Below are positions 8,090 to 20,315 of a stretch of 64,000 nucleotides of DNA, in pieces. Positions within the stretch are counted from its first letter, which is position 1. Each line of letters opens with the position of its first letter. Position numbers and translations under genes: made by a program. The notes under the pieces were generated by a model, which was not told the origin of the DNA, searched no databases, and saw only the letters and a program-made list of their open reading frames with translations. The stretch comes from a bacterium (GTDB lineage Bacteria; Vulcanimicrobiota; Vulcanimicrobiia; Vulcanimicrobiales; Vulcanimicrobiaceae). The stretch is taken from assembly GCA_021794175.1 (NCBI GenBank), contig JAJYRI010000005.1, positions 1 to 64,000 on the forward strand, written 5' to 3'.

Positions 8090-9511
8090 ATGCCGAGCTT
8101 TGCCGAACGGCTGAACGCCGCCCTCGAGAGCAGCCGCATGAGTGCCGCGGAGCTTGCAACGCGCTCCGGAGTCACCGAGTCGGCGATCTCGCTGCTGCGC
8201 GCCGGCCGGCGCCAGCCTTCCTATCAGACCTTCGAGCGCCTCGCGCGCGTCCTCGCCGATCTCGCCGCACCGAAGGTCGAGCGCGACTCGGTGACCGACC
8301 CCATCGAGGAAGCGATCGCCGATATTCGGGCCGGAAAGATGGTCGTCGTCCTCGACGATGAGGACCGCGAAAACGAGGGCGATCTCGTCATGGCCGCCGA
8401 GAAAATCACCCCCGAAGCGATAAATTTCATGCGCAAGGAGGCGGGCGGCCTCATCTGTATCGCCATGACCGGCGCACGGCTCGACGAGCTCGATATTCCC
8501 ATGATGGTCAGCGATAATACGGCCGTCCACGAGACCGCGTTTACCGTCTCGGTTGAGGCGCGCGGGCTCACGACGACGGGGATCTCGGCGCACGATCGCG
8601 CGGCGACGATTCTGAAGCTGCTCGATCCCGCCGCGACCTCGGCAGATTTTTTGCGTCCCGGCCACATGTTTCCGTTGCGCGCCCGCGAGGGCGGTGTGCT
8701 GGTGCGGGCCGGTCAGACCGAGGCCTCGGTCGATCTCGCACGGCTCGCCGGGCTCGCTCCGGCGGGCGTTATCTGCGAAATCATGGCCGAAGATGGAACG
8801 ATGGAGCGGCGAGACGGGTTACGAGCATTTGCCGATCACCACGGCATGAAGCTTGTCACCGTCAGGGAGCTCATCGCTTACCGTATGAAAACCGAACAAC
8901 TCGTCACGCGCGTCGCCGAATTTTCGCTTCCCACGACCTACGGTCTCTGGAGCGGTATCGCCTACGAGACCTCCGTCGACGAAAACACACACGTCGCGCT
9001 GGTTATGGGCGAGATCGGCGACGGCAAAGATATACTCGTGCGCGTGCACAGCGAGTGCCTTACCGGCGACGCGCTGCATTCGATTCGTTGCGACTGCGCG
9101 GCGCAACGCGACGGCGCGATGCGGATGATCGCCGATGCCGGGCGCGGCGTGCTGCTCTATCTGCGCCAAGAAGGGCGCGGCATCGGGCTCGCCAACAAAT
9201 TGCGCGCATATCAACTGCAGGATAATGGGGCCGACACGGTCGAAGCGAATTTAGCGCTCGGTTTGCCGGTCGATAAGCGCGATTACGGCATCGGGTCGCA
9301 GATTCTCGTCGACTTGGGAATAAAAGAACTGAAACTCATCACCAATAATCCGCGCAAGATCTTCGGCCTCGAAGGCTATGGCCTCAAGATCGTCGAGCGC
9401 GTCCCGATGGAAACGACGCCGACGCCGTTCAATCGTCGCTACATGGGGACGAAACGTTCGAAACTCGGACACCTCTTCGACGAGTCGGTTCAGAACGCGC
9501 CCGCATCGTGA
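8090..9511 (+). CDS. ribBA: XRE-type HTH domain fused to DHBP synthase (RibB) and GTP cyclohydrolase II (RibA)
   Basis: N-terminus FAERLNAALESSRMSAAELATRSGVTESAISLLRAGRRQPSYQTFERLARVL (HTH_XRE); then VVLDDEDRENEGDLVMAAE (RibB) and RVHSECLTGDALHSIRCDCAAQ...RQEGRGIGLANKLRAYQLQDNGADTVEAN (RibA). Confidence 0.95.
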   Translation: MPSFAERLNAALESSRMSAAELATRSGVTESAISLLRAGRRQPSYQTFERLARVLADLAAPKVERDSVTDPIEEAIADIRAGKMVVVLDDEDRENEGDLVMAAEKITPEAINFMRKEAGGLICIAMTGARLDELDIPMMVSDNTAVHETAFTVSVEARGLTTTGISAHDRAATILKLLDPAATSADFLRPGHMFPLRAREGGVLVRAGQTEASVDLARLAGLAPAGVICEIMAEDGTMERRDGLRAFADHHGMKLVTVRELIAYRMKTEQLVTRVAEFSLPTTYGLWSGIAYETSVDENTHVALVMGEIGDGKDILVRVHSECLTGDALHSIRCDCAAQRDGAMRMIADAGRGVLLYLRQEGRGIGLANKLRAYQLQDNGADTVEANLALGLPVDKRDYGIGSQILVDLGIKELKLITNNPRKIFGLEGYGLKIVERVPMETTPTPFNRRYMGTKRSKLGHLFDESVQNAPAS

Positions 9512-12060: not shown

Positions 12061-13500
12061 ATGGATCACTCCAGTTATGCTTCGCCGTTCTCTTGGAGGT
12101 ACGGTCGCAAGGACGTGCGCTCGCTCTTCTCGGAGCGGACGCGGCGGCGGCTCTGGCGCGAGGTTTGGATCGCCTTAGCGCAGGCCGAAGCCAAGCACGG
12201 CCTCGTCAATGAGGCCGAACTCGCCGATTTGCGCGCGCACGCCGACGAGATCGATATCGAGGCGGCGCTGGAGATCGAGCGCTCGATTCACCACGACCTG
12301 ATGGCCGAGATTCGCGTCTATGCCTCGCAGGCGCGGATCGGCGGCGGGAAACTGCACCTCGGTGCGACCTCGATGGATATAGAAGATACCGTCGAGACCT
12401 ATCGTATCCGGCGCGCGCTCTCGACGATCGGCGAACGCCTTCGCGAAGTACTTGCCGCCTTCGCCGAGCGCATTACGTCGCAGGCGGATCGTCTCTGCAT
12501 GGCGTTCACGCATCTGCAACCGGCGGAGCCGACGACCTTAGGCTATCGCTTTGCGATCTACGCTCAAGATCTCCTCATCGACGATGCGAACCTGCGCCAT
12601 GTCTTTGCGCAGATGACGACCAAAGGGCTGCGCGGTGCGGTCGGCACCTCGGCTTCCTACGAGCAGTTGCTCGGCGGAGCGGGCGCGTCGATCGATCTCG
12701 AGCGCGAAGTGCTCGAGCACTTCGGCCTCGAGGCACGCGCTGCGAGCACGCAGACCTACACGCGAAAGCTCGACTATCTGTTACTGAGCGCGCTCGCCGG
12801 CATCGGCACCTCGCTCTCGAAGTTCGCAGCCGATATCCGCATCCTCAGTGCCCCGCCCTTCGGCGAACTCGCCGAACCCTTCGGAAGCGCCCAAGTCGGC
12901 AGTAGTGCGATGCCCTTCAAGCGCAATCCGATTCTCTGCGAACGCATCGATTCGCTGGCGCGCCTTCTGCCTGCGTATGCCGATGTCGCCTGGCAAAATG
13001 CGGCAACCAATTACCTGGAACGCACGCTCGACGACAGCGCGAACCGGCGCACGACGATTCCCGAAGCGTTGCTCTGCGTCGACGAGATTTTATCGTTAGC
13101 ATTACGCGTCGTGCGCGGCTTACGCATCGACGAGCGGCGTATCGCGCAGAACGTGCGCACCTACGGGCCGTTCGCCGGCACCGAACGAGTGATGATGGAA
13201 GCGGCGCGCGCCGGCGGCGACCGCCAGGAGTTGCACGAGACGTTGCGCGGGCGAGCGATGGAGGCGTGGGATGCGCTCGCGCGAGGAGAAGATAATCCGC
13301 TCGCGACGCTGCTTGCGGGCGACCGATCGCTCACGGAGTTGATCGACCCGGCGGAGATTCGCCGCTCGCTCGATCCGACGGGGCACGTCGGCCTGGCGGC
13401 TCGTCGCGCGCGCATGGTCGCCGAGCAGATCGAGGCCCTACCGGTGTTCCCGCAACAACGCATCGTCGCCCATAATCCGTCGGAGGAAGAACGTGGATAA
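12061..13500 (+). CDS. purB: Adenylosuccinate lyase
   Basis: HDLMAEIRVYAS, THLQPAEPTTLGYR, GSSAMPFKRNPILCERI signature. Confidence 0.95.
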   Translation: MDHSSYASPFSWRYGRKDVRSLFSERTRRRLWREVWIALAQAEAKHGLVNEAELADLRAHADEIDIEAALEIERSIHHDLMAEIRVYASQARIGGGKLHLGATSMDIEDTVETYRIRRALSTIGERLREVLAAFAERITSQADRLCMAFTHLQPAEPTTLGYRFAIYAQDLLIDDANLRHVFAQMTTKGLRGAVGTSASYEQLLGGAGASIDLEREVLEHFGLEARAASTQTYTRKLDYLLLSALAGIGTSLSKFAADIRILSAPPFGELAEPFGSAQVGSSAMPFKRNPILCERIDSLARLLPAYADVAWQNAATNYLERTLDDSANRRTTIPEALLCVDEILSLALRVVRGLRIDERRIAQNVRTYGPFAGTERVMMEAARAGGDRQELHETLRGRAMEAWDALARGEDNPLATLLAGDRSLTELIDPAEIRRSLDPTGHVGLAARRARMVAEQIEALPVFPQQRIVAHNPSEEERG

Positions 13501-14683
13501 AGGCATCGAGATCGCTCGCGGTAAGACGAAAATTCTCTACGAAGTTCCAAGCTCTCCCGATCAACTGGTCGTCGCGCAGGGCGATGCGATCACCGCCGGA
13601 GACGGCGCGCGACGCGATGAGATTCCCGGGAAAGGGCGCCTCGCCGCTCAGACGACATCGCGTGTTTTCAGGTTACTCAATCTCTGCGGTCTTCCGACGC
13701 ATTTTCTCAACGGCGGCGAGGATGACGACGACAACGAGATGTTGGTACGGCGTTGCTCGATGATTCCGCTCGAAGTCGTCGTTCGCGGGGTTGCCGCGGG
13801 TTCGTTCGCGCGTCGGCATACGGGTCTCCAACGCGGATCGGTCTTGGTGCCGCGGGTTACCGAGTTCTTTTTTAAGGACGATGCAAACCACGATCCGCTG
13901 ATCGCTCCGGAAGAGATCGCTGCCCGTGGTATCGCTTCGCCGAACGAGATCGGCGCGATGAGCGAGATCGCTCGGCTTACGTTCGAAATTCTCGCCCATG
14001 CATGGCGACATCGCGACGTCCTCCTCGTCGATCTCAAGATCGAATTCGGTCGCTTGATCGGAGGAGAGAATCAGGGGCAACTGGTTATCGCCGATGTGAT
14101 CGATAACGATTCGTGGCGCATTTGGCGGCACGGACACGAAGACCAAATGCTCGACAAGCAGATCTACCGAAATCTCGACCCGGTCGATGAAGCGGGCCTC
14201 GCCCGTGTAAAGGCGGCCTACGAACAGGTCGCGGAATTCGTCGGCAGCTTTCCGGCGATGCGGCCGGGGGTTGCGGCGATCTTCGTCGATGAAGAAGCGA
14301 TCGTCGAACGAGCGAACGAAGTCGCGGCGGCGCTGCACGGGTTCGGCATTCCGACGGCGCGCCATCTCGCAAGCGTCACCGTCACACCCGGCTACGTGTT
14401 GCAGATCGTCGCGCAGATCGAGGCGAGTTTCGCGCGGCCGATTTTCGTGGCAATCGGCGACCGCACCCTGCGAGCGACGCTCGACGGCAGTGCCAGCTCG
14501 CCGGTCATCGACGGAAACGACGAGCCGCACCGCATCGCGTTAGCGTGCGCGAAATTACTGGCGATCGACGATTCGGCGATGTTCGGGCGGGTGATGCTCG
14601 CGCAATCGAATGCGCGCTCCGAGATGCTGCGTGTCGACGCGTTGCTCCAGCAGCAACTTCCGCCGGGGGCCGTCATTGCGTGA
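13493..14683 (+). CDS. purC: SAICAR synthetase fused to a PurE-like C-terminal domain (PAICS-like architecture)
   Basis: GKTKILYEV, EFFFKDDANHDP, VDLKIEFGR, VIADVIDNDSWRIWRHGHEDQMLDKQIYRNL (PurC); residues about 255-396 contain HGFGIPTARHLASVTVTPGYVLQIVAQIEASFARPIFVAIGDRTLRATLDGSASSPVI, resembling the PurE-like half of animal PAICS. Confidence 0.9.
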   Translation: MDKGIEIARGKTKILYEVPSSPDQLVVAQGDAITAGDGARRDEIPGKGRLAAQTTSRVFRLLNLCGLPTHFLNGGEDDDDNEMLVRRCSMIPLEVVVRGVAAGSFARRHTGLQRGSVLVPRVTEFFFKDDANHDPLIAPEEIAARGIASPNEIGAMSEIARLTFEILAHAWRHRDVLLVDLKIEFGRLIGGENQGQLVIADVIDNDSWRIWRHGHEDQMLDKQIYRNLDPVDEAGLARVKAAYEQVAEFVGSFPAMRPGVAAIFVDEEAIVERANEVAAALHGFGIPTARHLASVTVTPGYVLQIVAQIEASFARPIFVAIGDRTLRATLDGSASSPVIDGNDEPHRIALACAKLLAIDDSAMFGRVMLAQSNARSEMLRVDALLQQQLPPGAVIA

Positions 14684-16982
14684 TCTAGCCGTCGCCGAGC
14701 TCGACGACGAAGCGTTGCGCGCTCGCGCCGACGCCTTGGGTTTAGCGTTACGCGTCGACGAATTGCGGAGTATCGCGCAGCGGCTCGGACGCGCGCCGAG
14801 CCTCGTCGAACTCTATGCCTTCGATGCGCAATGGAGCGAGCATTGCTCGTATAAATCGAGCCGAGCGCTCCTGGGACGCCTTCCTACCGAGGGTCGCGAC
14901 GTCGTTTTGGGCCCTGCCGAGGACGCCGGTATTCTCCATCTCGGCGAGCACGAGGGGGAACGCTACGGCATCGTCATCGCGCACGAATCGCATAACCACC
15001 CCTCGCAGGTCGTTCCGTTCGAAGGCGCCGCGACCGGGATCGGTGGAATCGTGCGCGACGTGCTCTGCATGGGTGCCGAGGTGGTCGCGGTCGCCGACCC
15101 GCTCCGTTTCGGTAGCGTCGACGCCGCGAACGCGCACCAACGCGCGGTAGCGCGCGGAGTCGTTGACGGCGTCGCGGCGTACGGAAATGCAATCGGCGTG
15201 CCGAATCTCGCCGGCGACTGCTACTTCGACGGCGAATTCGACGACAACGTTCTCGTGAATGTCGTCGCTCTCGGCTTAGTCAAAGAATCGGAGATCATTC
15301 ACTCGCGCGTTCCTCGCAACGGCGAGAATTTCGTACTCCTGCTCGTTGGGAAGGCGACCGACGCCAGTGGATTCGGCGGCGCCTCGTTTTCGTCGGTTGC
15401 GCTGGATGCGAAGGAATCGCAGAGCAACAAAGGAGCCGTTCAGGTTCCCGATCCCTTTCTCAAAAACGTCATTATGCGGGCGAGCTATCGCGTGTTTTCG
15501 TTCCTCCGCGAACGCGGCATCGAAGTCGGCTTTAAAGATCTCGGCGCCGGCGGAATCATGGGCTGCTCGGCGGAGCTCTGCAGCGCCGGCGGTTTCGGCG
15601 CCGAAGTCGATCTCGACACCGTCAACGTGGCGGTCGATCATTTGCTTCCCGAGGTCATCGCCGTCGGTGAGACGCAAGAGCGATTGCTCTGGGCGCTACC
15701 CGAGGAAATCGTCGACGAGGTCGAGCGTATCTATAACGAGGAATTCTCGCTGCCGCAGGTCGCCCAAAATGCACGTGCGGTGCGGATCGGCCGCGCTACC
15801 GCGGCACAACGCTACCAGCTCCGCCACCGCGGAGAGCTCGTCATGGACGTACCGATCGATTTTCTTACCGGATCGGTGCGCGATACATTGCCCGTCGAGG
15901 CCCCGATGCCGCCGACGATGCATCGAAAGCACGACCTTCTCTGCGAACGCTCGCTCGACGATCTCTTTCATGAGATTCTCGCCCATCGCGATGTCTGCTC
16001 GCGTGCGCCGCTCTATCGCCATTATGACGCCGTCGTACGCGGACGCACGGTTATTCCGCGCGGCGAGGCCGACGCCGGCGTACTAGCGCCGATTCGCGGC
16101 TCGCGCCTCGCGTTTGCGCTCAGCGTCGACGGAAATCCACGCATCGGCCGTCTCGACCCGCAACGAGCGGCCGAGCACGCCGTCTATGAATCGGTGCGGA
16201 ACGTCGTTACCGTCGGCGCCGAACCGATCGGCTTAACCGATTGTTTGAATTATGGGAGTCCGCGCGACGCACGGCAGTACGGCGAGCTCGTCGCCGGAGT
16301 CGACGGCCTCGCGCGTGCGGCGCGCGGTTTCGGGCTCGCCTTTGTATCGGGCAACGTGAGCCTGTATAACGCAGCCCCGAGCGGACATGCGATTCCGGCA
16401 TCGCCGATCGTTGCTTGCCTCGGACGACTCGCCGATGTTTCGCAATGCGTCACTTTGCCGTTGAAAGAAGTCGGTTCGCATCTCTATCTGGTCGGCGAGA
16501 CGCAGCGCGCGCTCGGCGGAAGCGTGATCGCTTCGATCCTCGCGCTTGAGGACGAGGCGGTTCCGGAGATCGATATCGAGCGAATCGTCGCCGAGCACCG
16601 CTTCCTCCTCGCTGCTGCAAGCGAAGGTTTGCTGCGAAGCGCGCACGACATCTCCGATGGCGGACTCTTCGTGACGCTCGCCGAGATGAGTTTCGGCTGT
16701 TTGGCGGCGCGCCGCGCGCCGATCGGCGTGGAACTGGACGGCGTCGCCGGATGGTCGGGCGTCGGCCTCTACGAATCGGTCTTCGGCGAGTGGGGCGGCA
16801 TCGTCGTCGAAGTCGCGCAACGCGATGTCGAGCGCTTCGAGGAACTCGCGGGGTCGCTCGAGAGCGTGCGCGAGCTCGGGTCGACCATTGCGCAACCGCT
16901 GCTGGCGTTCGATGATTCGGCCTGGGAGATCGCCGATCTGCACCGCAGTTGGGCGCGACCGCTCGAGGAGCTCTTTCCATGA
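14676..16982 (+). CDS. purL: Phosphoribosylformylglycinamidine synthase subunit PurL
   Basis: HCSYKSSRALLGRLP, HESHNHPSQVVPFEGAATGIGGIVRD, KDLGAGGIMGCSAE; likely TTG start at 14676 (track start 14610 lies inside purC). Confidence 0.95.
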   Translation: MRDLAVAELDDEALRARADALGLALRVDELRSIAQRLGRAPSLVELYAFDAQWSEHCSYKSSRALLGRLPTEGRDVVLGPAEDAGILHLGEHEGERYGIVIAHESHNHPSQVVPFEGAATGIGGIVRDVLCMGAEVVAVADPLRFGSVDAANAHQRAVARGVVDGVAAYGNAIGVPNLAGDCYFDGEFDDNVLVNVVALGLVKESEIIHSRVPRNGENFVLLLVGKATDASGFGGASFSSVALDAKESQSNKGAVQVPDPFLKNVIMRASYRVFSFLRERGIEVGFKDLGAGGIMGCSAELCSAGGFGAEVDLDTVNVAVDHLLPEVIAVGETQERLLWALPEEIVDEVERIYNEEFSLPQVAQNARAVRIGRATAAQRYQLRHRGELVMDVPIDFLTGSVRDTLPVEAPMPPTMHRKHDLLCERSLDDLFHEILAHRDVCSRAPLYRHYDAVVRGRTVIPRGEADAGVLAPIRGSRLAFALSVDGNPRIGRLDPQRAAEHAVYESVRNVVTVGAEPIGLTDCLNYGSPRDARQYGELVAGVDGLARAARGFGLAFVSGNVSLYNAAPSGHAIPASPIVACLGRLADVSQCVTLPLKEVGSHLYLVGETQRALGGSVIASILALEDEAVPEIDIERIVAEHRFLLAAASEGLLRSAHDISDGGLFVTLAEMSFGCLAARRAPIGVELDGVAGWSGVGLYESVFGEWGGIVVEVAQRDVERFEELAGSLESVRELGSTIAQPLLAFDDSAWEIADLHRSWARPLEELFP

Positions 16983-17748: not shown

Positions 17749-18150
17749 ATGGAACGCGCGTACGCCGTCGAGCTGAAGATCCCCGATAACGAGGCTTACA
17801 CCGCGATGCGGGCGCTGCAGCGATTGGGAGTCGCGGTCGCGCGCGTGCAGCGCGCCGATATTCTCATCTTCGATCGCGATGCGAGCGACGAACGTCTCGG
17901 CGAGTCGATCGAGCGCGACGAGCGGCTTTTCAACCCGAATAAACACCGGCTCGAGCGTTTGCCCGGCATGCACCCACGCGAAGGGGAGGTGTGGATCGAG
18001 ATGCTCGACGCGCCACGTTCCGCGTCGATGCGTCGCTTGGTCGGCTGGCGTCTCTTCGATCACGCCGGAAAGCCGCTCGGCGACGACGATCTCGACGCCG
18101 CGTGCGCTCGACTGCTTTGTAACCCTGCCATCGAAAGGGCGATCCGATGA
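17749..18150 (+). CDS. PurS-like divergent protein (FGAM synthase small subunit candidate)
   Basis: N-terminal YAVELKIPDNEAYTAMRALQRLGVAVARVQRADILIFD resembles the PurS ferredoxin-like fold in order and length; position directly after purQ; about 50 extra C-terminal residues. Confidence 0.5.
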   Translation: MERAYAVELKIPDNEAYTAMRALQRLGVAVARVQRADILIFDRDASDERLGESIERDERLFNPNKHRLERLPGMHPREGEVWIEMLDAPRSASMRRLVGWRLFDHAGKPLGDDDLDAACARLLCNPAIERAIR

Positions 18151-19169
18151 ACCGGCACTATACCATCGCGACGTTGGGCTCGCATTCCGCGCTTCAGATT
18201 CTCAAAGGGGCGCGCGACGAGGGTTTCCGCACGTTGGCGATCACCAATCCGCAGACCGAACGACTCTATCGGTCCTTTCGTTTTGTCGACGAAGTCATGG
18301 TCCTACCTTCGTATTCGGCGTTTCCGACGCTCTTTGAAGAGCTTCGAGCGCGCAAAGCGATCGTCGTCCCGCATGGATCGTTCGTCGCGTATCTCTCGCC
18401 CGAAGAGCATAAGAAAATGACGATCCCGTATTTTGGGAACAAGGCCGTTCTGGATTGGGAAGCGAGCCGCGAACTGCAACGCGATTGGCTGACGCGTGCC
18501 GGCCTTCGCTTACCCCGGCAATTCAAGAGCGGCGCTGAGATCGATCGCCCTGTCATCGTCAAACTCTACGGTGCCGCAGGCGGTAAGGGCTATATGTTTA
18601 TCCGCGACGCCGCCGACTTCGAAGAGCGTGCCGGCTCCCTCAAGGCCCAATACACGATCCAGGAATACATCATCGGCGTTCCGCTCTACATACACTATTT
18701 CTATTCTCCGCTTTCGGGAGAACTCGAGATTATGTCGATGGATCGTCGTTACGAGACCAACGTCGATTCGCTCGGCCGTATTCCGGCGGCGGCGCAAGAG
18801 GGGATGGACGTCGACCCATCTTACGTCGTGGTCGGCAATTCACCGGTGAGCCTGCGCGAGTCGATGCTCGCCGAGGCGTTGGAGATGGGAGACAACGTTA
18901 TCCGCGTCAGCAAAGAAATTTGCGGTCCCAAAGGACTCTTCGGCGCTTTTTGCATCGAGACGATTATCACGCCGGATATGCATTTCTATATCATGGAGAT
19001 TTCGGCGCGCATCGTCGCCGGAAGCAACCTGTTCATCGACGGATCGCCGTATTCGTATCTCAATTACTCCGAGCCGATGTCGACCGGGCGCCGTATCGCG
19101 CGCGAGATAAAAAACGCACTTCTCGCATCGAACTTACAGGCCGTTCTCGACGATTCGAGCGTTCTTTAA
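18147..19169 (+). CDS. purP: Archaeal-type FAICAR synthetase (PurP), copy 1
   Basis: IATLGSHSALQILKGARDEGFRTLAIT, IPYFGNKAVLDWE, PVIVKLYGAAGGKGYMFI, IQEYIIGVPLYIHYFYSPLSGELEIMSMDRRYETNVD, EISARIVAGSNLFIDGSPYSYL: ATP-grasp PurP signatures. Confidence 0.9.
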   Translation: MNRHYTIATLGSHSALQILKGARDEGFRTLAITNPQTERLYRSFRFVDEVMVLPSYSAFPTLFEELRARKAIVVPHGSFVAYLSPEEHKKMTIPYFGNKAVLDWEASRELQRDWLTRAGLRLPRQFKSGAEIDRPVIVKLYGAAGGKGYMFIRDAADFEERAGSLKAQYTIQEYIIGVPLYIHYFYSPLSGELEIMSMDRRYETNVDSLGRIPAAAQEGMDVDPSYVVVGNSPVSLRESMLAEALEMGDNVIRVSKEICGPKGLFGAFCIETIITPDMHFYIMEISARIVAGSNLFIDGSPYSYLNYSEPMSTGRRIAREIKNALLASNLQAVLDDSSVL

Positions 19170-19172
19170 CCG

Positions 19173-20315
19173 ATGACCCATTTTACGTCGGTCGAAGAGA
19201 CGCTGCGAGGGTACGACCTCGATGCGTTGACGCTCTGCTCGATCGGAAGCCACTCGGCACTCGAAGTCGCCGCCGGGGCGCGGTTGCGCGGCTTGCGTAA
19301 TTTGGTAGTGACGGCGCGTGGACGCGAGCGTACCTATACCGAGCATTTCCGCCGCCGTGAAGGCGCGATTCCCCGCGGTTGCGTTGACGACGTCATCGAA
19401 CTCGAGCGGTTTGCCGACTTGCTCGACGAACGGGTGCAGCGCGAGTTGCTCGCGCGCAACGTCATTTTTTGCGCGAATCGATCGTTCGAAGTGTACTTGC
19501 ACCAACACTTTAGCTACGACGAGATCGAGCGGCGTATGCTCGTTCCGTTCTTCGGGAACCGTTTTCTCCTCCGTGCCGAGGAACGCGATGAGGCGGGAAA
19601 CCAGTACGAACTACTAGCGAAGGCCGGTATACGCCATCCGCAGCAATTTGCATCGCCCGATGAGATCGACCGGCTGGTTATGGTAAAGGCTCCGCACGCT
19701 CGCGTCCGTTTCGAACGCGCCTTCTTTCTCTGCGCGAACCCACGGCAGTACCGAGAAGTAAGCGCGCGATTGATCGCCGACGGCATCCTCGACGAGGCCG
19801 GGCTTGCCGGAGCGGTCATCGAAGAATTCGCGCTCGGGCCGTCGATTAATTTAAATTTCTTCTATTCGCCTCTGCTCGGCGAACTCGAGCTGATGGGGAC
19901 CGATACCCGCCGTCAGACCAATCTCGAAGGGTTCCGCAACGTGCCGCCATCGGTGTACGAACAACTGCGCGACGTCCCCATGCGATTAGAAGAAGCGGGG
20001 CACATCGCCGCGACGCTAACGGAGTCGACCTTGGAATCGGCTTTCGCTATGGGCGAGCGTTTTGTCGCCGCCGCGCGTGAAGCTTTACCGCCGGGAACGA
20101 TCGGACCGTTTGCGCTGCAGTGCGCGATCGTCGCCGGCCCGCCGAAGGAATTCGTTTGTTACGACGTGTCGCTACGAATACCGGGCTCTCCGGGAACGCG
20201 CTTTACCCCCTATTCATCGTACCGGTGGGGACGCGATATCTCGGTCGGCGAGCGCATTGCGATGGAGTTGGAGTTCGCTCGCAGCGCCGGACGTTTGGCG
20301 GAGGTGTTAACATAA
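19173..20315 (+). CDS. PurP-like ATP-grasp protein, divergent copy 2
   Basis: Same order of motifs: LCSIGSHSALEVAAGARLRGLRNLVVT, LVPFFGNRFLLRAEE, LVMVKAPHARVRFERAFFL, SINLNFFYSPLLGELELMGTDTRRQTNLEG, DVSLRIPGSPGTRFTPYSSY. Confidence 0.85.
   Translation: MTHFTSVEETLRGYDLDALTLCSIGSHSALEVAAGARLRGLRNLVVTARGRERTYTEHFRRREGAIPRGCVDDVIELERFADLLDERVQRELLARNVIFCANRSFEVYLHQHFSYDEIERRMLVPFFGNRFLLRAEERDEAGNQYELLAKAGIRHPQQFASPDEIDRLVMVKAPHARVRFERAFFLCANPRQYREVSARLIADGILDEAGLAGAVIEEFALGPSINLNFFYSPLLGELELMGTDTRRQTNLEGFRNVPPSVYEQLRDVPMRLEEAGHIAATLTESTLESAFAMGERFVAAAREALPPGTIGPFALQCAIVAGPPKEFVCYDVSLRIPGSPGTRFTPYSSYRWGRDISVGERIAMELEFARSAGRLAEVLT

Follow-up and report, generated by a model that had tools for sequence, protein, structure and literature searches.

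The window, a stretch of 64,000 nucleotides from the genome of a soil bacterium of Candidatus Eremiobacterota (NCBI Vulcanimicrobiota, formerly WPS-2), carries part of a purine operon at positions 12061-16982, where three genes follow one another on the forward strand. purB (adenylosuccinate lyase; 12061-13500, +) overlaps by 8 nucleotides the open reading frame that concerns us here (13493-14683, +), which begins with GTG and encodes a protein of 396 amino acids composed of PurC and what we will call a pseudo-PurE domain. The stop codon of this frame is in turn overlapped by purL (FGAM synthetase large subunit; 14676-16982, +), which likely starts with the TTG at 14676. The frame and every motif quoted from it in a preliminary description of this DNA are present at 13493-14683. 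Across its whole length, the protein is 93-98% identical to those of the nearest named contigs, among them Candidatus Eremiobacterota MAGs. We compared it with 117 genomes of the class (MAG data), of which 99 belong to the family of the window (f1), 4 to a second family (f2) and 14 to a third (f3). The fusion is in frame across 72 f1 sequences, and we therefore rejected a chimeric or frameshift artefact as its source.

Other genes in the window have features of their own. A PurS-like protein encoded after purQ (17749-18150, +) matches PF02700 weakly (E 9e-5) and, with 133 amino acids, exceeds the 77 positions of that model. Two PurP-like genes of the archaeal FAICAR synthetase family (DUF1246/DUF1297) lie side by side at 18147-19169 and 19173-20315 (both +), here within a bacterial pur operon; paired purP genes are known from archaea (PMC3261824). 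In addition to these two genes, the window genome encodes PurH on contig C4, and we found no PurO in it. A RibBA riboflavin enzyme (8090-9511, +) carries a fused N-terminal HTH domain (HTH_3, E 8e-7).

Fusions of the PAICS type, class II PurE and the PurK-PurE route are all known. The N-terminal half of the window protein (residues 1-228; 13493-14176, +) is a SAICAR synthetase domain (PF01259, E 3.3e-60), as complete as the preliminary description had it: the ATP- and substrate-binding residues of the active site are conserved, and GKTK, KDD and D-DND-WR are invariant in an alignment of 67 relatives. Its score against TIGR00081 (144.5) is below the cut-off of 189.9, and the best PDB sequence matches of the protein are PAICS. 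Because nearly all genomes of the class, with few exceptions, have one PurC, the window protein is the cell's PurC, and a second PurC doing SAICAR synthesis was rejected on the same count. From its intact binding residues, the PurC domain of the fusion is predicted to be active. The fusion also occurs in duplicate on separate contigs of a single genome (L162 and L165, isolate bin6A; G106). In G114, the main PurC has no PurE-like domain and contig C9 carries another PurC, interrupted by an in-frame stop (L218), probably either a pseudogene or part of a foreign contig. In the window protein, the PurC domain is followed by a linker helix and the start of an f1-specific FPxMRPGM segment, both delimited by alignment (residues 229-254; 14177-14254, +); F253, P254 and R257 are invariant in f1.

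Against single models, the C-terminal part of the protein gives marginal matches (PF00731, E 0.084, below the cut-off; TIGR01162, E 1e-4). A family-only profile built from 62 f1 sequences matched Bombyx PAICS (4ja0) with an E-value of 2.6e-13, reaching its C-terminal helix, human PAICS with 5.8e-9 and class I PurE with 1.7e-8. An AlphaFold model of the C-terminal half, made from the family-only alignment (pLDDT 86, pTM 0.72), had Treponema denticola class II PurE and PAICS as top matches in Foldseek, and the full-length model (pLDDT 92, pTM 0.89) fits human octameric PAICS with TM-scores of 0.89/0.84. One chain thus joins an N-terminal PurC to a C-terminal PurE fold, which is the architecture of a PAICS-type fusion. 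The likeness to PAICS that the preliminary description had drawn by eye, proposing a structural comparison of residues 255-396, therefore holds up, and profile and predicted fold together identify these residues as a real homologue of the PAICS PurE half. A Rossmann-like core (residues 255-345; 14255-14527, +), delimited by the profile, Foldseek and the active-site columns, has lost its catalytic residues; it is followed by conserved helices (residues 346-384; 14528-14644, +) equivalent to the PAICS oligomerization helix.

We mapped the active-site residues and mutational data of the human enzyme (PMC9376930) onto the fused domain column by column, via intact relatives. The former MGSTSD phosphate/ribose loop (human 272-277) is lost and reads FVDEEAI (residues 264-270; 14282-14302, +), so that DEEAI takes the place of GSxSD. 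In the former SAHK motif (human 301-304), now ASVTV (residues 293-297; 14369-14383, +), the serine is kept, the catalytic His303 is replaced by threonine and Lys304 by valine. The former AGRSNGL loop (human 329-335) is likewise lost, reading AIGDRTL (residues 320-326; 14450-14470, +), with GDRTL in place of RSNGL. VIDGNDEPH (residues 338-346; 14504-14530, +) marks the site of a deletion of about 25 residues that removed the SCPP...SSLxLPSG active-site loop and appears as a gap in the f1 profile alignment. Between human positions 350 and 378, f2 and f3 have 29 residues as against 3-4 in most f1; every f1 sequence has a shortened loop (nearly all have lost about 25 residues, the mildest case 15), and the loop is present in all f2 and f3. 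The fused domain also lacks the SAHR and GGAAHLPG motifs of class I PurE, both of which the separate PurE of its relatives has. With the histidine absent, it scores 20.6 bits against TIGR01162 (cut-off 149.6), a score that is not decisive on its own because the intact f3 domain also falls under the cut-off (121.9 bits).

The three families differ sharply in these columns. The catalytic His303 is kept in 13/13 f3, 0/4 f2 and 8/72 f1 sequences. All 13 f3 sequences retain Gly273-Ser274, Asp277, SAHK and RSN; in f2, the histidine column holds glutamine in three sequences and leucine in one, and E. coli PurE is inactivated by a change of this histidine to glutamine (PMC9376930); f1 has lost the GSxSD loop. 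No part of the domain is better conserved in f3 than the active-site columns (0.96; permutation p 0.004), and none is less conserved in f1 (0.47; permutation p 0.009). Since the f2 and f3 intermediates bridge the columns, we rejected a catalytic site concealed through misalignment. The non-conserved GSxSD and SAH(R/K) residues pointed out in the preliminary description are thus real, and proper alignment brings no catalytically complete site to light. This comparison makes the predicted loss of AIR carboxylase activity well supported, and the fused domain is almost certainly dead as a catalyst. Ser301 is retained in 68 of the 72 f1 sequences and Gly330 in 57, so the f1 domain may still bind some ligand.

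The state of the fused domain follows the distribution of the purE-purK pair. purK is present in 88/99 f1, 4/4 f2 and 0/14 f3 genomes, and a stand-alone class I PurE with GSxSD, SAHR and GGAAHLPG, whose gene adjoins purK, in 90/99 f1 and 4/4 f2. Genomes of f3 have an intact PurC-PurE fusion without purK, those of f2 have purE-purK and a fused PurE with its catalytic histidine replaced, and those of f1 have purE-purK and a dismantled fused domain. Second PF00731 matches in f3 (G053) and in G077, a genome from another family of the phylum, were rejected as second PurE proteins and assigned to LarB. The fusion of PurC with class II PurE is found intact both in f3 and in families farther away in the phylum, and its distribution marks it as the ancestral state of the class. 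The fusion itself is therefore not the oddity, contrary to the preliminary description, which had treated its occurrence in a bacterium as an anomaly.

Other combinations also occur. Genome G072, a distant family member, has an apparently intact PAICS-type fusion and a purE-purK pair (L077 and L224), a case of redundancy without decay, from which it follows that a gain of purEK need not at once cause decay. In G077, the PurE half of a PurC fusion (L079, 1829-2980, -) also looks degenerate; in this 100%-complete genome we found LarB but neither another PurE nor PurK. In its family mate G129, a frame of 425 aa matches AIRC with 121 bits.

In a tree of PurC, each of the three families is monophyletic (support 89 for f1, 100 for f2 and 63 for f3), and f1 groups with f2 (support 75). 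The gain of purEK and the decay of the fused domain amount to about one phylogenetic event, so that a causal link between them rests on one clade. Four sampled sequences that have no PurE-like domain form a single clade (support 98) at the base of f1. They belong to genus g19, where PurC stops near residue 255, directly followed by purL, in the six genomes in which the end of PurC is visible (G027, G111, G113, G114, G116 and G117). Judging from these gene ends, this one genus cut out the domain precisely while keeping PurC, and the domain is thus not indispensable to PurC.

Purifying selection acts strongly on the domain where it is kept. In comparisons within the genus of the window, the pseudo-PurE domain as a whole has a dN/dS of about 0.04, with 0.047 for residues 255-345 and 0.016 for the C-terminal helices; PurC has 0.023. 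Relative to PurC (protein level, fixed tree), the domain evolves at a rate of 1.2 in f3, 2.7 in f1 and 5.0 on the f1 stem; constraint on the f1 domain is relaxed yet far from neutral. The conservation of the C-terminal helix is 0.78 in f3 versus 0.75 in f1, and K354, D360, G365, R366, Q371, R375 and D382 are conserved residues of the helices. In human PAICS, this helix lies in the oligomer interface, and the R403Ter variant, which removes it, reduces octamer formation and leaves 21% activity (PMC12229671). By alignment, the segment lost in R403Ter corresponds to f1 residues 368-390, which overlap the stretch of highest conservation in the f1 domain.

These observations can be read as the aftermath of an enzyme replacement. 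Ancestors of the class would have made CAIR from AIR and CO2 with the fused class II PurE. The lineage of f1 and f2 would then have gained the route that depends on ATP and bicarbonate, in the form of a stand-alone class I PurE and PurK. This gain would have freed the fused PurE from catalysis and allowed it to lose first the catalytic histidine and then, in f1, the substrate loops; this order of gain and decay is our reconstruction from the present-day gene sets. The reason for most f1 genomes to keep the domain would be that its fold, and the C-terminal helix in particular, stabilizes PurC and still keeps the PurC domains together in an oligomer like that of PAICS. We consider it likely that the window protein is such a PAICS-derived PurC, its pseudo-PurE domain retained for assembly after the enzyme was replaced. 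The role in oligomerization or stability, taken by itself and by analogy with PAICS, is somewhat more probable than its absence. It is favoured because loss of the helix in human R403Ter reduces octamer formation and the f1 equivalent overlaps the best conserved stretch of the domain; for octameric assembly via the PurE domain and helix, helix conservation gives indirect support, the models being monomer predictions.

Could the domain instead still form CAIR with an unusual site? Stand-alone purE and purK were not found in the window genome assembly, as such an enzyme would lead one to expect. However, purE is present in 9/9 genus mates, and contig C66 (5,563 bp), which matches a genus mate over its whole length, stops about 0.5 kb short of the purK end there, so that purEK lies within a gap of the assembly. 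The search for a second purE that the preliminary description proposed thus leads to a purE-purK pair in the family, missing here through the contig gap, and we rejected the fused PurE as the organism's sole PurE. As the universal histidine and all substrate loops are gone as well, a still active enzyme is extremely improbable. Of the two options in the preliminary description, a non-catalytic, structural domain is accordingly the one we favour, and a domain that works differently is disfavoured. The higher rate relative to PurC in f1 and on its stem, along with the clean deletion in g19, would suit a functionless remnant that decays toward the same end. Against this stand the low dN/dS of the domain within the window's genus, in the helix as low as that of PurC, and the fact that all 72 analysed domain-bearing f1 sequences are in frame with invariant residues; we regard a mere remnant as unlikely.

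A more interesting alternative, and the most interesting one to our minds, is that the domain docks the replacement enzymes. Binding the stand-alone PurE octamer and/or PurK, it would pass the unstable N5-CAIR and CAIR to PurC and so rebuild, by protein-protein contact instead of a covalent link, the channelling of the old fusion. PAICS has been proposed to channel CAIR inside its octamer (PMC9376930), PurK, PurE and PurC were reported to hold a central place among the interactions of an E. coli two-hybrid screen (reviewed in PMC10912719), and f1 has invariant residues of its own, in the FPxMR linker and at R290. Another E. coli screen, by contrast, groups PurK with PurD, PurM, PurT and PurN rather than with PurE or PurC (PMC12583656), g19 has purEK and a PurC without the domain, and the part best retained across f3 and f1 is a helix that already served homo-oligomer contacts. 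Docking is therefore conceivable, if doubtful. The same invariant linker residues, together with a core fold that persists along with a small number of residues of the pocket (the equivalents of S301, G330 and L335), would also fit a role in allostery or regulation, in which the domain acts as a sensor of a nucleotide or an intermediate of the pathway and, on binding it, adjusts PurC. Yet the residues that contact phosphate, ribose and carboxylate are lost, the active-site columns are those least conserved in f1, and a new conserved pocket is not evident in the f1 domain, all of which make a sensor quite improbable.

With retention for assembly as the preferred reading, the families form a readable series, from an intact fusion, through a fusion with a replacement enzyme and a lost histidine, to a dismantled but conserved domain and finally a clean deletion. 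The series would illustrate how an essential metabolic domain turns into a pseudoenzyme after its reaction has passed to another gene, and it offers a natural set of proteins for the non-catalytic roles of the PAICS PurE core in assembly, stability and channelling. PurC-PurE fusions in these genomes should not be annotated as AIR carboxylases without a check of the site. In open-access literature that lacks most subscription journals, so that absence from it is weak evidence of novelty, neither a PurC-pseudo-PurE protein nor such a replacement series was found described, and we found nothing on Eremiobacterota purine synthesis or bacterial PurC-PurE fusions.

Among known systems, animal PAICS (human 6YB8/2H31, Bombyx 4JA0) is like the window protein in having PurC followed by class II PurE, in its modelled fold and in the kept C-terminal helix. 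The window protein differs in having lost all AIR carboxylase catalytic motifs and the 25-residue loop, and in the window's family a separate purE-purK pair performs the carboxylation. The f3 fusion of Eremiobacterota (for example, L065) shares the operon gene, the architecture and about 50% identity with it, but keeps GSxxD, SAHK, RSN and the CP..LPSG loop, and occurs without purK or a stand-alone PurE. T. denticola class II PurE (3RG8, 5C5D) is the best single-domain fold match (E 2e-7); unlike the fused domain, it is stand-alone and catalytic, and identity is 17-20%. A further parallel is the PurE-PurE' double protein of Methanobacteria. Its second PurE-like domain, according to a published suggestion, plays a structural part and is needed for assembly (PMC3261824); in contrast to the window protein, it is fused to another PurE, not to PurC.
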